From the NCBI RefSeq assembly GCF_014203095.1, contig NZ_JACHIG010000001.1, positions 186,001 to 250,000 of the forward strand: DNA of 64,000 bases. The letters run 5' to 3'. Below the pieces are notes generated by a model that did no database searches, was not told the DNA's origin, and worked only from the letters and a program-made list of their open reading frames with translations. Both the position numbers and the translations under genes were made by a program. Of the stretch, positions 7,782 to 19,445 are shown in pieces. This DNA is from Prosthecobacter vanneervenii (GTDB lineage: Bacteria > Verrucomicrobiota > Verrucomicrobiia > Verrucomicrobiales > Verrucomicrobiaceae). Position 1 is the first letter of the stretch, and every line of letters begins with the position of its first letter.

Positions 7782-10514
7782 ATGAGCTGGCGCTTTCTTT
7801 TTTATTCGTGCTGGGTGGCGCTTTGTCTGATAGGGGCCGCGGCGCAGGCTGCGAAGACTGAGGTGAAGAGCGAAGCTGCAGAGCTGAAGACGCGCATCTT
7901 CCACAAGGTGCCGCCTGATCTTTTGTCGATCACGGAAGAGGTGGATCAGGATGCTGTGGCTGCAGATCCCTTTGCAACGACACCACCGCGGAAGCGCAAG
8001 CCGGGCGAACCTGTGCCGCTGATCAAGTCAGCACGGGATAAACTGGTTGAGGTGGGGGTGACCTTTCCAGATGGTGCCAGCGCCTCCTTTGATTCCTATT
8101 CAGGCACGCTCACCGTTGTGAACACGCAGGCAAATCTGGATCTGTGCGAGGCTTATTTTGACAGCAGCGGCCTGCACTATCCACACCACGTGAGCTTCGT
8201 GCTGACCGTGGTGGAGGGGCCGGGGGAGATCATCCGGGAGGCGAGTGCAGCGGTGGCGCAGGAAGATGCCGCCAGCGCGCTCGCGGGCCTGATGCAGCAG
8301 GCGGCCACGGCGGAGCCGCAGGTGCGCGTGGTGCAGGATGCCTATTTGGAAACGAAGTCCGGCACACGTGCCACGACGCGGTCGGTGAAGGAGCATGCCT
8401 GCCCCATCTTCAGCATGGATGATCAAGGCCACCTCTCCTCCGATCATGAAATGCGGAGCATCGGCCTGAATTTGGAAATGGAGCCATCCATCGGGGCTGA
8501 CGGAAAGACCATCGACCTCAGCTACACTCTGGAGCTGAGCCCTGCTCCTCCTCAGGAACGCAAGATGACTTCAGCCGATCCCACCACGGGAAGTCCCGTC
8601 GAGTTTCCATTCGTCGCGGTGCCCATGCTGCGTCTGGTGGCAGAGGCCACTGTGCAGGCGGGCAGCACGCGGCTGCTCGGGGTGGTCAGCCCCTATGGCA
8701 AGGCAGGTGCCGGGCGCAGAGATGTGCAGTGGGCGGCTTTCCTCACCACGAACATCGTGAAGGTGGACAAAGCTTCGCGTGTCAGGCCCAGGCTCCCTGA
8801 GGCGGAGCTGCAGGTGCCCTCCGGCATGCGCAGGCTGGCGCTGAGCGTGACGCCCGGGCTTTTGGAAAATGAATGCCTGAAATCCGGGCAGACGCTTCAG
8901 CCTTACTTCGACACTCACGGCATTCTGCCGGTCGCGGGCGCAGCGGCGGTGATCCATGAGGAGGTGCTGACGGTGGTGAATACGCAGGAGAACATCGAGC
9001 GCATCGTGGCGCTGGTCGATTACCTGACCTTGAAGCTGCCGCGCACCGTGGCGCTGACACTGCACAGCGTGCGTGGCTCAGGCGCATTCCTCCGCAGCCT
9101 CGCCGCACAGGCCGCAGCCCAGTATGACCACGACGCGCAATGGCGGCAGGTGCAGCAGGCGCTGGATGCCGGGCTCCATGACCTCAGGCGGGTCGGCACC
9201 AGCCGGATGGAAACCAAGTCGGGCGCACGCGCCAAGCTGGAGGCCGTGCAGGAGTACTCGTTTCTGAGCCACTACGGGCAGGACAAGGCGGGCCGCATGG
9301 CGGCGCAGTTTGAAACCAGCCGGGCGGGAGCCATCCTGGAGTTTGAGCCCACGCTGAACAGCTGGGATGACAGCATGGAGCTCAATCTCTCTCATGAATT
9401 TCATCCTCTGCCGCCAGAGGTGGCGCACGTCGTCATGCTGAGTCCCGGTGCCAAAAAGAGGCAGAGCTTTCCCATCATGCACGCGCATGCCCAGCAGACG
9501 GTGACCGGGTGGCATGTGAAGAATGGCAGCACGCGGCTGTTTGCCCTGCTCAAGCCTCCAGGAGAAGAGGCGGCGGGAGATGAGCTGATCGCCACCTTTC
9601 TGCATTGCGATGTGATGCCCCAAAGCGCACGCATCAAGCCAAACGGCCCCACGCTGGAGCAGATGCTGGCCACTGTGGCAAAGGTGGAGTCGCAGGAGCA
9701 GTTTGTGCGCAGCTTCAGGGTGTCGCCGGATTTTATTTCAGGATCTGAAAACGAGAGCGTTCATGATCAGATCACGGACCGCTCAAAGCATAAGAGCGTG
9801 CAGGAGATTCTGGTAGAGCATGGTATTTCATTTCCGCAGGGCGCATGGGCGCGCAGCGGCGGTGCCGCCAGCCAGATCACGGTCAGAAACACCGCGGAGA
9901 ACCTGGACAAGGTGCAGAAGTGTGTGGAGTGGATCGAGCGTGAAACAGCCCTCGCCCGTGTGGTCGTCACATCTCAGGTGGTGGAGGCACCGGGCCCGCT
10001 GGTGCAGCGGCTCATGGCGGAGACCGCTGGCCGGTGCGATCATCGCAGGGAGATGCAGCAGGTGCTTGAGGCCGTGCATCAGGGCAGCGCCAGGCATCTC
10101 GGCCTCTCCCGCATCGAGACCATGGCTGGAGCCAAAGGCAAGGCGGAGCAGGGTGTGCAGCATCCCTACTTTACGGGAGCAGTGGAAAACGATGCGCGCC
10201 TCGTCGGCTCATGCACCGAGGTGGAGGCCGCAGGCAGAGCAGGGGATTGTGTGGTCAGTCTCGTGCTCAACTCAGAATTCCACACCGCTGATCCGCACGA
10301 GCACAAGGAGGAGGTCATCGACACCGCAGGCCGCCGTCTGGAGCTGACGCTGACCGATTTCTACCTCATGCAGCTATCCGCCGAAACGGTGGTGCCCGAT
10401 GGCTGTGCCCGCATGCTCGCTGTGTGGAAGCCGCTCGGAAAGCAGGATGCGGAAAACGCAGATGTGCTGCAGGTCTTGTTCATCACCTGCGATCAGGTGC
10501 GTGGCCGGGAGTGA
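7782..10514 (+). CDS. secreted protein with three tandem secretin-associated modules
   Basis: This 910-residue protein has a signal peptide (FLFYSCWVALCLIGAAAQA). It contains three repeated modules of about 280 residues each. Each opens with a short beta-alpha domain like the secretin/TonB N0 fold: GVTFPDGASAS...LTVVNTQANLDL (near residue 90), EEVLTVVNTQENIERI (near 395) and GISFPQGAWAR...ITVRNTAENLDKV (near 680). Each then has a longer region with a recurring pattern: a VVEGPG-like strand, TKSGTRA/TKSGARA/TMAGAKG, and a GSTRLL-like strand near the end. The N0-like motif is typical of PulD-related proteins in Verrucomicrobiota and Planctomycetota, but there is no secretin pore domain. It is likely periplasmic; its role is unknown. 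Confidence 0.7.
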   Translation: MSWRFLFYSCWVALCLIGAAAQAAKTEVKSEAAELKTRIFHKVPPDLLSITEEVDQDAVAADPFATTPPRKRKPGEPVPLIKSARDKLVEVGVTFPDGASASFDSYSGTLTVVNTQANLDLCEAYFDSSGLHYPHHVSFVLTVVEGPGEIIREASAAVAQEDAASALAGLMQQAATAEPQVRVVQDAYLETKSGTRATTRSVKEHACPIFSMDDQGHLSSDHEMRSIGLNLEMEPSIGADGKTIDLSYTLELSPAPPQERKMTSADPTTGSPVEFPFVAVPMLRLVAEATVQAGSTRLLGVVSPYGKAGAGRRDVQWAAFLTTNIVKVDKASRVRPRLPEAELQVPSGMRRLALSVTPGLLENECLKSGQTLQPYFDTHGILPVAGAAAVIHEEVLTVVNTQENIERIVALVDYLTLKLPRTVALTLHSVRGSGAFLRSLAAQAAAQYDHDAQWRQVQQALDAGLHDLRRVGTSRMETKSGARAKLEAVQEYSFLSHYGQDKAGRMAAQFETSRAGAILEFEPTLNSWDDSMELNLSHEFHPLPPEVAHVVMLSPGAKKRQSFPIMHAHAQQTVTGWHVKNGSTRLFALLKPPGEEAAGDELIATFLHCDVMPQSARIKPNGPTLEQMLATVAKVESQEQFVRSFRVSPDFISGSENESVHDQITDRSKHKSVQEILVEHGISFPQGAWARSGGAASQITVRNTAENLDKVQKCVEWIERETALARVVVTSQVVEAPGPLVQRLMAETAGRCDHRREMQQVLEAVHQGSARHLGLSRIETMAGAKGKAEQGVQHPYFTGAVENDARLVGSCTEVEAAGRAGDCVVSLVLNSEFHTADPHEHKEEVIDTAGRRLELTLTDFYLMQLSAETVVPDGCARMLAVWKPLGKQDAENADVLQVLFITCDQVRGRE

Positions 10515-11604: not shown

Positions 11605-12867
11605 CTACTTCTTCAGCCCCTTCCACACCGCAGGCAGTCTTTCCTTCACCAGGCGGGCGCTGGCGGGGGGCATGAGGGCTGGGGTGAGGGGGATGTTTTT
11701 GGTGTCTTCAAAGTCGAAGTGGCCGGGGCTGCGGGAGTATTTGTAGTCCTTGTCCAGGCTGCCGTCTCCGGAGAGCTGGATGCCCACCTCCTCCACATGG
11801 GGGACGGAGAGGTAAAAGAGGCCGCGCTCCATCACGCAGGATTCGCCGGGCTTGAGGCGCAGTTTGGCGCGGGCCAGCTCCTGAAAGAGCTCGCGTGCGG
11901 TGGACTGCGCGGGATTCACAAAGGTGCGGTGCTCGGCGATGAGGTCGTGGTAGGCGTCCTCTTTCCGCAGCGCGGCAAAGGCGGTGTCGATCTCGTCCTG
12001 CGCCAGCGGGAAGTGGGTGCAGCCCAGCACGATGGTCTGCAGCGGCTGCCGGGGCTTGGCGGCGCTGTAGGCGGCGGTGAGGGCGCGGGCTTCCTTGAGT
12101 GCGTAGGAGGAGACGGATTCGGGAAAGGCGGTGTCTCCTTCGATGGCCCCGGCCAGCGTGGTGCTGCCCTGCTGCACGATCAGCGGCACGCTGTGGCCCG
12201 CACGGCCCAGCGTGGTGGAGATGGTGCGCGGATACACCTTGCTGGCGCAGGTGCCCACAGTGGCCAGGATGCCGATGCCGCCGTCTGAGTTTGACTCCAG
12301 CACGCCGCGTGCTCCGGCCTCCACCACACCCACCACGATCACCGGCAGCCCCCAGGCGGCCACGGCTTTGCGCACGTCTTCCAGGCCGTAGGCGGTGGCG
12401 GTGTTGCAGGCGATCACGATGGCCTTCACGGGCGGCTTGTCGTAGTGCGGGGTGTCGCCCTCGGCAGGCCACGCACGGCGGCCCAGGAGAAAGATGGCGT
12501 CTTTGAGGATGAGCTCCTTGAGGTAATCGGTGCGCTGCACGGCGGAGTAGTTGCCGTAGGGCATATTGGCCTGGTCGCCAAAGTAGATGAATCTCTCCTG
12601 CGCAAAGTCGGGCACACCATCGGCACCGGGCTGCAGGGTGTTGTTGTCAAAGGCGTCCATCGTCAGCAGCGCCTCCAGCACGGTCAGCCCGCCGATGCCC
12701 GAGTCAAACACGCCGATGGGCAGATGGCGTGTGGCATCGGCATCGCTCCACGCGGTGGTGTCCACGGTGAAGGCCGCTTTGCCATCAGGATGGCTGCGCA
12801 CATGATCGATGAGGTCTGCGGCCTGGGCGGCGGTGGCCAGCAGGATCAACGTGGTGATTGTTTTCAT
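11605..12867 (-). CDS. exported glutamate racemase (MurI) homologue
   Basis: From the ATG at 12867 this 420-residue protein starts with a signal peptide (MKTITTLILLATAAQAA). It then shows all the core Asp/Glu racemase motifs: GVFDSGIGGLTVL, IACNTATAYG with Cys154, and LGCTHFPL with Cys283. Both Cys residues of the two-base racemase mechanism are therefore present. Standard MurI makes D-glutamate in the cytoplasm and has about 265 residues. This one is longer, with a C-terminal extension of about 110 residues (residues 310-420), and is predicted to act in the periplasm. That makes a role in extracellular D-amino-acid chemistry, not precursor synthesis, more likely. The frame also extends 18 codons upstream, but that start would spoil the signal peptide. 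Confidence 0.8.
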   Translation of the reverse strand: MKTITTLILLATAAQAADLIDHVRSHPDGKAAFTVDTTAWSDADATRHLPIGVFDSGIGGLTVLEALLTMDAFDNNTLQPGADGVPDFAQERFIYFGDQANMPYGNYSAVQRTDYLKELILKDAIFLLGRRAWPAEGDTPHYDKPPVKAIVIACNTATAYGLEDVRKAVAAWGLPVIVVGVVEAGARGVLESNSDGGIGILATVGTCASKVYPRTISTTLGRAGHSVPLIVQQGSTTLAGAIEGDTAFPESVSSYALKEARALTAAYSAAKPRQPLQTIVLGCTHFPLAQDEIDTAFAALRKEDAYHDLIAEHRTFVNPAQSTARELFQELARAKLRLKPGESCVMERGLFYLSVPHVEEVGIQLSGDGSLDKDYKYSRSPGHFDFEDTKNIPLTPALMPPASARLVKERLPAVWKGLKK

Positions 12868-12953: not shown

Positions 12954-14378
12954 TTAGGAGAAGGCAAATAACAGCCGCCCAAAGAACACGGCGGCCACCA
13001 TGCCCACAAAGTCGGCCGTCAGCCCTGCCACCAGCGCATGGCGAAAGCGGCGCACGCCCACGCTGCCGAAGTAAACGGTCAGCACGTAGAAGGTGGTCTC
13101 CGTGGAACCATACAGGATGCCGGCGGTGAATTTCACCATCTCGCTCAGGTCCGGGCGGGTCAGGATCTCATTCAGGATGCCCTGCGCGCCGCTGCCGCTG
13201 AGAGGGCGCATCAGCGCCAGGGACAGCAGCTCCACGGGAAAGCCCAGCACATTCAGCACCGGGGCCAGCAGGTACTCCAGCAGCTGGAAGGCACCGGATT
13301 CCCGCAGAATGGCCAGCACCGTGAGCATGGCCACGAGGTAGGGCATGATGCGCACCGCCACCTGAAAGCCCTCCTTGGCCCCGTCCACAAATTCCTCATA
13401 CACCCGCACCCCGCGCGCCCAGGCCACGCCCACGGCCAGCATGAGGATGGCGGGGATGGCCAGGCCGGAGGCTCCGTCCATGACCCGACGCCACACGGGC
13501 GGCTCTTGCGGCCCCTGCGCTGTGGCGGCGGTGCGTGCCTCCTTCTTCTTTAAAGAGAGCGCCTTTTCCGCATCCGCCTTGCGTTGCGCGGCCTTCGTCA
13601 TCATGCCGGAGATGCCGGTCTGCTGCAGCACCGTCTGCCGCCAGGAGGGCGGGCCCAGCTCCAGCACCGTGACGCCGAGAAAGAGCACGCCCAGAACGGT
13701 GAGCCAGAAGCCCCCCCGGCCTGTGATGCCCGCAGGCCGCGTGCTCGTGGCCGCGCCCTCTGCCGCCAGCTCGTCCGGCTGCACGGCAAAGCCCGGCAGA
13801 CGCTGAAAGCTCTTGGCCGCCAGCACCGCCGCCACGGAGGCGCAGGCCGTGGCCAGGATGGTGGGCACGATGACGCGAAAGCTGTGGCTCACGCCCGCCG
13901 CATTAAGAAAATTCATCGCCGTCATGGGGATGAGCGTGAAGGCCCCAGTGTTCAGCGCCAGAAAGGTGATCATGGCATTGCTGGCGCTCTGCTTGTGCGG
14001 GTTGATCTCCTGCAGGTGGCCCATGGCCTTGAGGCCCAGAGGCGTGGCGTTGTTGGAAAGGCCCAGCATGTTGGCGGAGAGATTCATCACCATGGCGCTC
14101 ATGGCCGGGTGGCCGGTGGGCACATCGGGAAAGAGGCGGCGCAGCAGCGGGGAGAGCACGCGCACCACGGCCTCCAGCACGCCCGCCTTTTCCAGCAGGC
14201 GCAGGACCCCCAGCCAAAACATCATCATGCCCGCCAGCGGCAGGGCGATGCCCATCACCGCCTTTTCCGCGCCCTTCATCGCCGCATCGATGACGCTGGC
14301 GTCTCCCGACACCCGCCCCATGAGCCCGGCGACGAGGAGACCGGTAAAGAGAAGTGTGGCCCAGATGTAGTTCAGCAT
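12954..14378 (-). CDS. SpmA-SpmB fusion, nucleoside-recognition (Gate) domain membrane protein
   Basis: About 474 residues from the ATG at 14378 (MLNYIWATLLF). An in-frame ATG at 14492 would add 38 residues and overlap the promoter of the divergent regulator. The N-terminal half matches SpmA (GRVSGDASVIDAAMKGAEKAV; MNLSANMLGLSNNATPLGLKAM). The C-terminal half matches SpmB (VRIMPYLVAMLTVLAILRESGAF; MRPLSGSGAQGIL; ILYGSTETTFYVLTVYFGSVG). A charged linker of about 70 residues joins them. In Bacillus these are two spore-maturation proteins. Fused forms occur in many non-sporulating bacteria, where their substrate is not settled. The protein is integral to the inner membrane with about ten helices. 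Confidence 0.85.
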   Translation of the reverse strand: MLNYIWATLLFTGLLVAGLMGRVSGDASVIDAAMKGAEKAVMGIALPLAGMMMFWLGVLRLLEKAGVLEAVVRVLSPLLRRLFPDVPTGHPAMSAMVMNLSANMLGLSNNATPLGLKAMGHLQEINPHKQSASNAMITFLALNTGAFTLIPMTAMNFLNAAGVSHSFRVIVPTILATACASVAAVLAAKSFQRLPGFAVQPDELAAEGAATSTRPAGITGRGGFWLTVLGVLFLGVTVLELGPPSWRQTVLQQTGISGMMTKAAQRKADAEKALSLKKKEARTAATAQGPQEPPVWRRVMDGASGLAIPAILMLAVGVAWARGVRVYEEFVDGAKEGFQVAVRIMPYLVAMLTVLAILRESGAFQLLEYLLAPVLNVLGFPVELLSLALMRPLSGSGAQGILNEILTRPDLSEMVKFTAGILYGSTETTFYVLTVYFGSVGVRRFRHALVAGLTADFVGMVAAVFFGRLLFAFS

Positions 14379-14428
14379 GCTATGGAGGAGGAAAAAATGA
14401 CAACATAGTAACCAGAAGATGGGGTAAT

Positions 14429-14444
14429 GCGTAAACGTTAGCGC
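14429..14444. promoter_or_regulatory. candidate operator between divergent genes
   Basis: GCGTAAACGTTAGCGC matches its own reverse complement at 12 of 16 positions (GCG..AACGTT..CGC). It lies in the 116-bp gap between the SpmAB-like gene and the MerR-type regulator, 50 bp before the regulator start. This is the usual place for an autoregulatory MerR-family site, but the assignment is inference only. Confidence 0.3.
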
Positions 14445-14494
14445 GCCAGACAAAAACTCCTCCCCTCCGATTTTCTGATTCCGCCACTTCATTC

Positions 14495-15496
14495 ATGCCC
14501 TGTCCCATCCAGCTAGCCAGCAAACTCAGTGGCCTCAGCCAGCATGTCATCCGCATCTGGGAGAGGCGCTACAGTGCACTGAGCCCCAGCCGTACCTGCA
14601 CCAACCGGCGCATGTACTGCGATGAAGCCGTGAAGCGCCTGAAGCTGCTCAAGACCCTGACGGAAAACGGCCACCGCATCGGCGGTGTGGCACGGCTGAG
14701 CACCGCCGAGCTGGAGGCGCTGGTGCAGGACCTGACCGCTGTGCCCCAGGCCGCGCAGGCACCGGCACCCGCCCCTGCTGTGGCACCCGGCACCACCCTG
14801 CCGGCAGAGCCCGCCACCCCGCAGCCTGTGGCCGAGCCCGCCAGCCCCGCCGCCCCTGCGCAGGTGAGCCCCGAGCAGTGCGTGGAGGACGCCCTGGAAG
14901 CCTCCAAGCGCTATGACTGCGAAGGCCTGCGCCGCATCATTCTCCAGGCCCGCATGCAGTATGGTCAGCGCGGCATGCTGCACCGCGTCATCTGCCCCAT
15001 GCTGATCAAGGTGGGCAGCCAGTGGCAATTTGGCGAGATGCGCCCCGGCCACGAGCACATCCTCACCGCCGTCATCCGCGAGATCCTGCTCACCCCGGTG
15101 CCCGGCAGCCAGGTGCCGCTGCATGCGCCGGAGCTCATCGTGGCCACACCCGCAGGGGAGCTGCACGAGCTGGGCGCGCTCATCGTCGCCGCCTCCGCAC
15201 GGGATCTCGGCTGGTATGTGACCTACCTCGGCCCCAATCTGCCCGTGGAGGAGATCGCCGCCTGCGCCATCGCGAGGAATGCCACCGCCGTGGCGCTCAG
15301 CGTCGTGTATCCCGAGGGCTGCCCCGTCATCACCGAAAAGCTGCGCCGCATCCGCGACCTGCTGCCGGCCAATATGCGCCTCATCGTGGGTGGGCGCTCC
15401 GCCGAGAGCTACCGCACCCTTTTGCCCGAGCTGGCCATCAAGTGGGTCAGCTGCCTGCACGGCTTGGACGACGCCCTGAGCAAAACCCCGCGATGA
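14495..15496 (+). CDS. MerR-family regulator with cobalamin-binding light-sensor domain (CarH/LitR type)
   Basis: This 333-residue protein has a MerR helix-turn-helix at residues 1-75 (LASKLSGLSQHVIRIWERRYSALSPSR; wing TNRRMYCDEAVKRLKLL). A Pro/Ala linker covers about 85-125. A four-helix B12-binding module follows, carrying W177-x9-E187-H188, the signature of adenosylcobalamin-dependent photoreceptors. A Rossmann cobalamin domain then has E222-L-H224-E-L-G227, where His224 would be the lower cobalt ligand, and ends in LIVGG. In CarH, B12-bound tetramers repress promoters in the dark and light breaks the complex. The target here may be the divergent SpmAB-like gene, the downstream FAH gene or its own promoter. 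No carotenoid or photolyase gene is in the window. Confidence 0.85.
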   Translation: MPCPIQLASKLSGLSQHVIRIWERRYSALSPSRTCTNRRMYCDEAVKRLKLLKTLTENGHRIGGVARLSTAELEALVQDLTAVPQAAQAPAPAPAVAPGTTLPAEPATPQPVAEPASPAAPAQVSPEQCVEDALEASKRYDCEGLRRIILQARMQYGQRGMLHRVICPMLIKVGSQWQFGEMRPGHEHILTAVIREILLTPVPGSQVPLHAPELIVATPAGELHELGALIVAASARDLGWYVTYLGPNLPVEEIAACAIARNATAVALSVVYPEGCPVITEKLRRIRDLLPANMRLIVGGRSAESYRTLLPELAIKWVSCLHGLDDALSKTPR

Positions 15497-15620: not shown

Positions 15621-16448
15621 ATGCTTCTTTACCGCACCACCACCGGCATCTTCATTCAGTCCGCCACCACCTGGCACGCCGTGCCGGAAACCAACTGGGA
15701 CGCCCTGCTCGAAGTCGTGGGTCTTCCCGCTTACCTTGCACAGATCGCCACCACCACGCCCGTCGTGGAAGCCCCCGCGCCCGAAAGCATTCTGGCTCCC
15801 ATCGTTTCCCAGGAAGTGTGGGCTGCAGGCGTGACCTACTTTCGCAGCCGCACCGCACGTATGGAGGAGAGCAAGGACGCAGGCGGCGGCAGCTTCTACG
15901 ACCGCGTGTATGCCGCCGAGCGCCCCGAGATTTTCTTCAAGGCCACCCCGCAGCGCGTGGCGCATCCCGGGCAGGCCATGCACCTGCGCAGCGACTCCAA
16001 ATGGATGGTGCCCGAACCCGAGTTGACCCTTTGCATCAACAGCCGTGGCGACATCATCGGCTACACCGTGGGCAATGACCTATCCTGCCGCGACATCGAA
16101 GGCGAGAACCCTCTCTATCTGCCACAGGCCAAGTGCTTCAAGCTCTGCGCCGCCCTCGGTCCCGCCATCCTCATTCAGAACGAGCCCCCCGCGCCCACCA
16201 CCCGCATCCATCTGCAGATCGACCGCGCCGGAGCCGCCGCCTTTGAGGGGGAGACCACCCTTTCCCAGCTCAAGCGCACCCCCGCAGAGTTGGCCGGTTT
16301 CCTCTTCCGCGACAACACCTTCCCCACCGGCACCTTCCTCATGACCGGCACCGGCATCGTCCCCGGAGACGAGTTCACCCTGCAAAGCGGAGACGTCATC
16401 AGCATCACGATTGACGGCATCGGCACGCTGGTGAATCCGATGGCGTGA
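15621..16448 (+). CDS. fumarylacetoacetate hydrolase-family protein, probable 2-keto-3-deoxy sugar acid dehydratase
   Basis: The 275-residue length and the motif [15 protein letters not shown] match the FAH-superfamily branch that includes 2-keto-3-deoxy-D-arabinonate dehydratase (KdaD). Likely metal ligands are the two Glu of PEPELTL and the Asp of [21 protein letters not shown] is also conserved in the superfamily. The expected reaction converts a 2-keto-3-deoxypentonate to 2,5-dioxopentanoate. A 2,5-dioxovalerate dehydrogenase is encoded 1.4 kb downstream on the same strand, which supports this reading. Two secreted-protein genes lie between them. The exact sugar substrate cannot be told from sequence. 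Confidence 0.75.
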
Positions 16449-17861: not shown

Positions 17862-19445
17862 ATGACACTCACCGGACACCACCTCATTGCCGGCCGCGAG
17901 GCTGCTCCCCACGGCCATTTCTTCCACGCCTTCAATCCCACCACCGGCGCGCAGCTGGAGCCCGTCTTTGGCGACGCCACCCATGCCGAGGCCGATGAAG
18001 CCCTGCAGGCCGCAGACGCCGCCTTTGACGCCCTGCGCACCGCCACGCCTGAGACACGCGCCAAGCTGCTGGACACCATCGCCGAAGAGATCACCGCCCT
18101 CGGAGACGCGCTGCTGGAGCGCGCCCATGCCGAGTGCGCGCTGCCCATGGCACGCCTGACCGGCGAGCGCGGACGCGCCATCGGCCAGCTCAAGCTCTTC
18201 GCCGCCCTGATCCGCGAAGGCTCCTGGGCGCAGCCCAGCGTGGACCACGCCATACCGGACCGCCAGCCGCTGCCAAAGCCAGACGTGCGCCGCGTGCTGC
18301 TGCCCATCGGCCCTGTGGTGGTGTTTGGCGCGTCCAATTTCCCCTTCGCCATCGGCGTCATCGGCACGGACACCGTCTGCGCCCTGGCCTCCGGCTGCCC
18401 GGTGGTGGTGAAAGGCCACCCCGCACACCCCGGCACCTGCGAGATGCTCTCCCGCGCCGTGCTGGCCGCACTGCACAAGGTGGGCCTGCCTGCAGGCTGC
18501 TTCTCCCTCGTGCACGGAAAGGGCAATGACATCGGCACCACGCTGACGAAGCACCCGCTGACCCAGGCCGTGGCCTTCACCGGCTCCCTGCGCGGTGGCC
18601 GTGCGCTCATGGACGTGGCTGCAGCCCGCGCACACCCCATCCCCGTGTATGCGGAAATGGGCTCCGTGAACCCCGTGTATGTGCTCCCCGGTGCGCTCAA
18701 GGAGCGTGCCGCCAAGATCGCCGAGGCCTACATCGGCTCCGTGACCATGGGCGTGGGCCAGTTCTGCACCAATCCCGCCGTGGTGCTCGGCCTCAAGAGC
18801 GACGGGCTCAAGGAGTTCATCAGCAGCGCCTCCTCCTTTGCCGCCAAGGTGGCACCCCAGACCATGCTGCATCGTGGTATCTGCGAAGCTTACGACGCAG
18901 GCACCGCCGTGTGGCAGACGATTGACGGCCTGGAGCTGGCTGGACAATCCGAAGCCCCCGCCAGCGAGGAGGCCTCTCAGGCAGCCTGCCGCATCTTCAC
19001 CACCACCATCGACGTGCTGGAGTCCAACGCCGAGCTGCGCCGCGAGGTCTTCGGCCCCTGCTCCATCATCACCGAATGCGCCACGCTGGACGACATGCTG
19101 CGCTACACCGCCGGACTGGAAGGCCAGCTGACCGCCACCATCCAAGGCACCGAGCAGGACCTGCGAGACTACGCCCCGCTCATCCGCGCGCTGGAGCGCA
19201 AGGTGGGCCGCATCATCTTCAATGGATTCCCCACCGGCATCGAGGTCTGTCCCTCCATGCACCACGGCGGCCCGTACCCTGCCGCCAGCCACAGCTTCTT
19301 CACCAGCATCGGCACCGGCAGCATCTACCGCTTTGTCCGCCCCGTGTGCTACCAGGGCTTCCCCGAAGAAGCGCTTCCTGAGCTCATCAAGGATGCCAAT
19401 CCCCGTGGTGCCATGCGCATCGTGGATGGTGTGCTGACGCGGTAA
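17862..19445 (+). CDS. 2,5-dioxovalerate (alpha-ketoglutarate semialdehyde) dehydrogenase
   Basis: This is a 527-residue aldehyde dehydrogenase. The opening (GHHLIAGRE), VFGASNFPFAIGV at the cofactor site, the catalytic Glu in AEMGSVNPV and the catalytic Cys302 in GQFCTNP are characteristic of the NADP-preferring alpha-ketoglutarate semialdehyde dehydrogenase branch. It oxidises 2,5-dioxopentanoate to 2-oxoglutarate, the last step of non-phosphorylative pentose, glucarate and hydroxyproline pathways. Together with the FAH-family dehydratase upstream it would complete a Weimberg-like route. The korAB genes 5.5 kb downstream could use 2-oxoglutarate, although a functional link is inference. Confidence 0.9.
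   Translation: MTLTGHHLIAGREAAPHGHFFHAFNPTTGAQLEPVFGDATHAEADEALQAADAAFDALRTATPETRAKLLDTIAEEITALGDALLERAHAECALPMARLTGERGRAIGQLKLFAALIREGSWAQPSVDHAIPDRQPLPKPDVRRVLLPIGPVVVFGASNFPFAIGVIGTDTVCALASGCPVVVKGHPAHPGTCEMLSRAVLAALHKVGLPAGCFSLVHGKGNDIGTTLTKHPLTQAVAFTGSLRGGRALMDVAAARAHPIPVYAEMGSVNPVYVLPGALKERAAKIAEAYIGSVTMGVGQFCTNPAVVLGLKSDGLKEFISSASSFAAKVAPQTMLHRGICEAYDAGTAVWQTIDGLELAGQSEAPASEEASQAACRIFTTTIDVLESNAELRREVFGPCSIITECATLDDMLRYTAGLEGQLTATIQGTEQDLRDYAPLIRALERKVGRIIFNGFPTGIEVCPSMHHGGPYPAASHSFFTSIGTGSIYRFVRPVCYQGFPEEALPELIKDANPRGAMRIVDGVLTR

Follow-up and report, generated by a model that had tools for sequence, protein, structure and literature searches.

The window that we analysed, a stretch of 64,000 nucleotides from Prosthecobacter vanneervenii, contains a gene for a CarH-like regulator (carH) standing divergently beside the gene of an SpmA/SpmB-like membrane protein (gate), and this pairing is conserved in the Verrucomicrobiaceae. 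With confidence slightly better than even, we favour the reading in which the regulator senses light through bound AdoCbl and represses both its own promoter and the divergent gate, a racemase being the probable second gene of the repressed unit. The likeliest mechanism of gate control would be repression in the dark, exerted from the intergenic region that the two genes share. In the dark, the AdoCbl-loaded oligomer would occupy this region, most likely over the element TACG-N19-TAC; in the light the Co-C bond would be broken, the oligomer would rearrange and the gate would be expressed. The features of the locus are the following.

11605..12867, minus strand: glutamate-racemase-like protein with an apparent signal peptide (Asp_Glu_race 1e-12; TIGR00067 95.7 bits, under the cut-off of 146.65)
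12954..14378, minus strand: gate, a fused SpmA/SpmB-like membrane protein and probable elevator-type transporter (474 aa; PF07670 9.9e-19)
14379..14494, no strand: divergent intergenic region common to carH and gate (116 bp)
14408..14434, minus strand: conserved bipartite element TTACGC-N15-GGTTAC (core TACG-N19-TAC), a putative promoter of gate (19-bp spacer) or putative operator half-sites
14495..15496, plus strand: CarH-like regulator (333 aa; MerR HTH and B12-binding domain)
15621..16448, plus strand: sugar-acid dehydratase of the FAH family (2-keto-3-deoxy-D-arabinonate dehydratase, 2q18, is the closest solved structure, 1.9e-58)
17862..19445, plus strand: aldehyde dehydrogenase (its best matches, all under cut-off, include the 2-oxoglutarate-semialdehyde type)

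The CarH-like regulator and its putative cobalt ligands

The regulator gene proposed by the sequence-only reading, 333 codons on the plus strand, was borne out, and Pfam recognises both of its domains (B12-binding 6.7e-14, MerR_1 6.8e-14). With an N-terminal MerR HTH and a C-terminal B12-binding domain with a helical cap, the protein has the domain plan of the broad CarH/LitR MerR-B12 photoreceptor family. Its domains and ligand codons are placed as follows.

Residues 7-69: HTH
Residues 84-119: disordered linker
Residues about 123-330: helical bundle and B12-binding Rossmann domain
15023-15025, plus strand: W177 codon
15053-15058, plus strand: E187-H188 codons
15164-15166, plus strand: H224 codon

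The top PDB sequence matches were T. thermophilus 3whp (5.7e-27) and CarH 5c8d (7.1e-27). In the AlphaFold model (mean pLDDT 84.5, pTM 0.60), residues 123-333 superpose on photocobilin 8j2x (Z 21.4, rmsd 2.5, 204 aligned), CtMerR 8jbt (Z 20.8, rmsd 2.8, 211 aligned) and TtCarH 5c8e_H (Z 20.2, rmsd 2.8, 201 aligned). Furthermore, the gene is the sole match at E <= 0.001 in its own 6.66-Mb genome, which also carries a gene for a PduO-type adenosyltransferase. The ligand residues, the fold, the single copy and this adenosyltransferase all argue for the light-sensor reading. Against it counts the score for NF052513, the NCBIfam equivalog of CarH, which was 109.2 bits and thus below the cut-off of 400; therefore, we call the protein CarH-like and not CarH.

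Regarding the ligands, W177-x9-E187-H188 is present just as had been claimed, together with ELHELG from residue 222, which contains H224. According to the available part of PMC11796333, the CarH/LitR signature is GxxW/EH/GxxH/GxxxP, with W131, E141, H142 and H177 in TtCarH; the protein studied here has it complete (G174-W177, E187-H188, G221-H224 and G246-P250). W, E, H and H were all kept in 97 of 100 aligned relatives, which represent 98 distinct places (L151/L084 and L161/L083 are identical places). The exceptions were L046, where the equivalents of W, H188 and H224 are lost, and L089 and L206, where H188 is replaced by Arg. Judged from this alignment, such conservation means that the signature is not due to chance. 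By comparison, the ligand residues, the PDB sequence matches and the model fold support the CarH/LitR-type sensor identity that had been proposed from the sequence alone.

The residue directly after W177 is Q178. It aligns with H132 of TtCarH, so the protein lacks the His of the bis-His light state, and His was found at the equivalent position in 3 of the 100 relatives. In TtCarH the change H132A abolishes monomerisation, and CtMerR, with Arg at this position, loses the adenosyl group in the light with neither bis-His ligation nor monomerising, a result obtained from crystals illuminated anaerobically (both from the available part of PMC11796333). The same part of that paper describes SasPcob, like CtMerR, as having no His there; SasPcob has Gln. 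Therefore, with Q178 a tetramer-to-monomer readout is not assured, and given the behaviour of TtCarH H132A, missing monomers would be no argument against light sensing, which is plausible for this protein from its residues. The test for a change from tetramer to monomer that the sequence-only reading proposed presupposes the chemistry of TtCarH. Because of this Gln, which also counts against the main reading, the light state would probably be nearer to that of CtMerR or a photocobilin, with no bis-His cobalt, than to that of TtCarH.

The gate protein and its pairing with carH

The divergent SpmA-SpmB-like membrane protein noted earlier was confirmed, and we set its start at MLNYIW. It contains two fused Gate stretches (PF07670, 68.2 bits against a gathering score of 29.6) and is therefore a Gate-domain protein; it also has a partial YjiG match under the cut-off (PRK10519, 1e-9). 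Its profile found no match among PDB sequences at E 0.1. The model (pLDDT 71.9, pTM 0.65, from a 14-row alignment) gave weak E-values with Foldseek, the best being 0.013, and Z 6.4-12.8 among the 50 VIA-align matches listed, with Pho90 8r35_A as the best (rmsd 5.4, 315 aligned). Nearly all of these 50 are transporters, one row being an integrative model of another kind. They include Pho90, NaS1, NaDC, INDY, CNT, TRAP, ArsB and MtrF, which we take to be elevator-type transporters, presumably of a DASS/CNT/TRAP grouping. Mainly helical models may reach such Z by chance, so what counts here is how uniform the list is, and on this ground the gate is a probable elevator-type transporter as far as the model goes.

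The racemase gene, whose start we re-set by eye to MKTITTLI, follows 86 bp behind the gate on the same strand and is the probable second gene of the gate unit. Its product (11605-12867, minus strand) starts with what looks like a signal peptide, MKTITTLILLATAAQA, and contains ACNTAT and GCTHFP, presumably both catalytic Cys motifs. A secreted racemase is unusual. The relative in G025 also has a signal-peptide-like N-terminus, and the racemase of the gate unit is probably periplasmic.

A CarH relative was found in 55 of the 68 genomes of the family, the other 13 having no match or one at E 1.9e-5 or weaker. For the gate the count was 61, to which G038 adds a fragment, the first 40 residues seen at a contig end (L145). 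Both genes were present in 54 genomes, carH alone in one (G025), gate alone in 8 (G009, G024, G026, G043, G050, G051, G054 and G058) and neither in 5; these counts are not independent, since the genomes are related and many are incomplete MAGs. In 50 of the 54 genomes carrying both, the genes are adjacent and divergent (48 measured loci, G038 with its contig-end fragment, and G066 from match coordinates), the other four being G003, G004, G005 and G012. Among the 48 measured loci, 41 have 96-152 bp between the two genes and the other 7 have 175-379 bp. The flanks vary, with 23 gene clusters beyond the gate (43 loci) and 15 downstream of carH (48 loci), some of them possibly spurious as the flank gene calls are heuristic.

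In a phylum sample of 387 genomes, CarH was found in 16 and gate in 20 at E <= 1e-20, a threshold that weaker relatives would escape; the 6 genomes with both were all Verrucomicrobiaceae and none lay outside the family. A scan of 84,980 species genomes gave, in the best 80 of 489 stretches, 79 loci, 38 with the gate and 41 without it in the stretch; these 41 include the family places L135, L144, L151 and L161, and the others cover at most 6 kb on each side. The frequency of divergent pairs amid varying flanks, and their restriction to the family among the 387 genomes, speak for the main reading. The eight gate-only genomes count against it, since there the gate is able to do without carH. The sequence-only reading had suggested a possibly new output and pointed to both neighbours of carH. 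Comparison supports this for the gate, a lasting partner, and less well for the dehydratase, whose cluster stands after carH in 24 of 54 loci. In literature titles and beginnings of abstracts, a scope mostly leaving subscription papers aside, we found no CarH-Gate or CarH-SpmAB link.

Judging by gene neighbourhoods, CarH relatives elsewhere often adjoin photoprotection-type genes. We took a census of the neighbours at 44 CarH loci without the gate, including the places in G003 and G004. The 81 nearest neighbours comprised 11 fasciclin, 9 sigma-70 region 2, 6 amine oxidase, 5 SRPBCC (Polyketide_cyc) and 2 photolyase proteins, and the 75 second neighbours 6 amine oxidase, 3 SRPBCC, 2 fasciclin and 1 DUF1365; these figures are among the 25 commonest families listed, most neighbours fall in none of those named, and the amine oxidases are CrtI-like among others. 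Fasciclin, sigma-factor, CrtI-like, SRPBCC and photolyase neighbours are typical light or singlet-oxygen genes. The fasciclin-domain proteins were the commonest immediate neighbour of CarH relatives of other groups (L154-L203, 11 of 81 proteins), and we know of no fasciclin-CarH link in the literature.

This census bears on another explanation, in which B12 supply (or redox) and not light is sensed, and AdoCbl binding sets both the DNA binding of the regulator and the expression of the gate. Photolysis would then be a side effect, and the cargo of the gate would be tied to cobalamin or nucleoside metabolism. The same ligand residues would serve, and the Gln at the H132 position, the transporter partner, the CNT-like nucleoside carriers among its fold matches and the location of photoprotection genes away from carH all fit. 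Furthermore, no cobalamin riboswitch (RF00174) was found in the genome, which means that B12 might be sensed otherwise. However, the photoprotection-type company of the relatives elsewhere argues for light, and AdoCbl bound in this manner is light-labile in the CarH, CtMerR and photocobilins studied (PMC11796333, available part). We regard the B12-supply explanation as possible, if rather improbable.

Among near relatives two gate types occupy the same place, with 85-89% and 59-65% identity to the gate of the window (types A and B, our own label, with the boundary at 68%). This split is not followed by carH (66-75%), the racemase (75-82% where found), the dehydratase (83-95%) or the intergenic region. 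A CarH tree for 46 loci shows 7 changes of gate type, of which well-supported branches force at least 4, and the gate tree shows 2; both are quick trees with some long branches flagged. It is therefore probable that the gate ORF has been exchanged several times while the switch stayed in place, and this exchange between fixed neighbours speaks for the main reading. The two types are about 60% identical and are swapped at a fixed locus (12954-14378; L034-L056), where selection by phage or substrate is conceivable.

The pairing might also be mostly vertical inheritance, the regulator acting on itself and on distant genes and the gate merely sharing the promoter region. The genomes are related, 8 of the family retain the gate without carH, and the one photolyase gene is located elsewhere, about 726 kb from carH on the same contig, all of which agrees with such a view. 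However, the flanks vary on both sides while the pair stays together across a short gap, the gate ORF appears to have been swapped in place several times with the pairing never lost, and the element in the gap has, in its extended form, a single copy in the genome. We consider mere inheritance quite unlikely.

Returning to light-dependent repression, two genomes serve as natural controls. In Brevifollis gellanilyticus (L046:7843-8799, minus strand) the equivalents of W, H188 and H224 are A, C and Q, and this protein is likely a B12-blind descendant, CarA-like in plan, as far as residues can tell. It retains both the gene pair and the element despite the ligand loss; therefore, B12 is not needed there at least, and this counts against the main reading. 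In G025, H188 is replaced by Arg and the gate is absent; the TGA of its carH is the terminal stop.

The intergenic region and the TACG-N19-TAC element

The 116-bp gap that the sequence-only reading placed between the divergent genes is there. Gapped-word enumeration in 31 non-redundant intergenic regions found TACG-N19-TAC in 13, and any word in 30 shuffled sets reached at most 7. Spacing 19 between TACG and TAC occurs in 22 of the 44 short intergenic regions, with none of the other spacings from 5 to 39 above 3 of 44, and in 300 shuffled sets no TACG/TAC spacing ever exceeded 3 of 31. The extended form TTACGC-N15-GGNTAC has one genome copy, in the carH-gate gap; as the reversed pattern, used as a control, has 2 copies, isolated occurrences of the extended pattern are to be expected by chance.

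None of 9 gate genes that have no carH alongside shows the element in the 160 bp upstream. Seven of these genes belong to gate-only genomes (all 8 of them except G043) and two to G003 and G012, where carH lies elsewhere; only 6 of the 9 belong to the genus of the window, and deeper genera are without the element even beside carH. In G025, where the gate is gone, the element is present, with a racemase divergent to carH directly behind it. Because of these absences at gates lacking an adjacent carH and its presence in gate-less G025, the element seems, by comparison, to go with carH, which is in favour of the main reading. At the 5 carH places away from the gate it is absent in four (L074, L083, L084 and L085) and present in L089. 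Its absence from half of the regions, deeper genera among them, counts against the main reading, and part of its conservation is shared descent. Six hexamers, chosen post hoc, were found in 35 of 44 regions and in 0 of the 9 gate regions lacking an adjacent carH, with a shuffled expectation of 0.11.

The element may be read in two ways. As a promoter it would have a -35 TTTACG and, after 19 bp, a -10 TACTAT that starts 32 bp upstream of the gate ATG; as an operator its blocks would be two putative half-sites. The promoter way leads to an explanation by MerR-style activation, in which one state of the regulator would activate a gate promoter with a 19-bp spacer, on the model of the metal- and drug-sensing MerR proteins that act on their transporters. 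The spacing, fixed at 19 bp in half of the 44 regions, is consistent with it, and the available parts of PMC1526738 and PMC8113463 give a spacer of 19-20 bp, along with genes for a regulator and a transporter, as the MerR pattern. However, a palindrome in the spacer was not robust (p 0.014 with letter shuffles, p 0.36 with column permutation). Furthermore, the model predicts a disordered linker behind the HTH and no long dimerisation helix, and the presumed -35 is variable in its first bases whereas TACGC and GGnTAC are nearly invariant, which suits protein half-sites equally. Activation of this kind is in our judgement unlikely. A sigma-70 scan of 14300-14560, with 16-18-nt spacers only, gave 0 sites.

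A CarH-type operator was also rejected for this region: neither TnnACA nor TGTnnA occurs between carH and gate, and elsewhere there are scattered single sites. TnnACA pairs 11 bp apart, as in the TtCarH/BmCarH tandem nnnnTnnACAn, were found in none of 48 intergenic regions, where imperfect repeats are possible, and this counts against the main reading; one region, L059, has a TnnACA-type pair 22 bp apart. In the whole genome there was no exact operator triple, of which about one or none is expected by chance, and 11 was not among the 8 highest spacings listed for periodicity in the intergenic regions. In other systems one or two operator repeats can suffice (PMC9304148, available part).

Known systems and the other genes of the locus

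TtCarH/LitR of Thermus thermophilus (5c8d, 5c8e, 3whp) shares with the regulator the MerR HTH, the B12-binding domain and the residues W, E, H and H, but the protein of the window differs in its Gln at the H132 position, in the lack of TnnACA tandem repeats and in its transporter partner. CtMerR of Chloracidobacterium thermophilum (8jbs, 8jbt) has the same signature and likewise no His at the H132 position, which is Arg there. The photocobilins (8j2w, 8j2x, 8j2y) share the fold of the cobalamin domain and, in SasPcob, the Gln; they add a bilin-binding part and enzyme outputs (PMC10979010, available part), whereas here a MerR HTH is present. The domain plan is also that of the myxobacterial CarH/CarA, with a B12-independent CarA there and the ligand-less L046 here, but those proteins repress carotenoid genes (PMC9304148, available part) and no carotenoid gene is nearby here. 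The MerR-type transporter circuits (PMC1526738 and PMC8113463, available parts) resemble the locus in the regulator beside a transporter and in the fixed 19-bp spacing of promoter-like blocks; the locus differs from them in its B12 sensor domain, in the lack of a robust palindrome and of a long dimerisation helix in the model. The SpmA/SpmB and YjiG/YjiH Gate-domain proteins are similar in the two PF07670 stretches and the partial YjiG match, but here both halves are fused and the gene is next to a B12 regulator.

Such a durable association with a transporter would, if true, widen the purpose of B12 light sensing; light may control small-molecule traffic rather than pigment. The family forms a natural series (intact, B12 ligands lost, regulator lost, transporter lost, transporter swapped), and the poorly understood Gate/SpmAB proteins would gain a regulatory handle through the pairing with carH. 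To our knowledge, the targets of CarH/LitR systems are genes for pigment, photolyase or other photoprotection. A broader scenario is that an ancestor of the Verrucomicrobiaceae moved a B12 photoreceptor away from photoprotection genes and into a transporter circuit with MerR-like 19-bp promoter geometry, so that light would gate metabolite traffic, with a secreted racemase in the unit and an interchangeable transporter ORF; we put this forward tentatively, as a doubtful possibility.

The statement that no carotenoid gene lies near carH proved correct. A carotenoid target elsewhere in the genome was rejected after searching for synthases and CrtI: the two SQS_PSY genes match best with HpnD and squalene synthase and not CrtB, both under the family cut-offs, and no crtI_fam match reaches the cut-off.

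The sugar-acid dehydratase reported as the neighbour of carH is present, and the aldehyde dehydrogenase gene is often the next one after it. Together (15621-16448 and 17862-19445, plus strand) they might complete an oxidative pentose route; only some members of the family have them downstream of carH. Finally, a 910-aa protein at 7782-10514 (plus strand) matches Secretin weakly (2.1e-6, 27.9 bits against 27.5).
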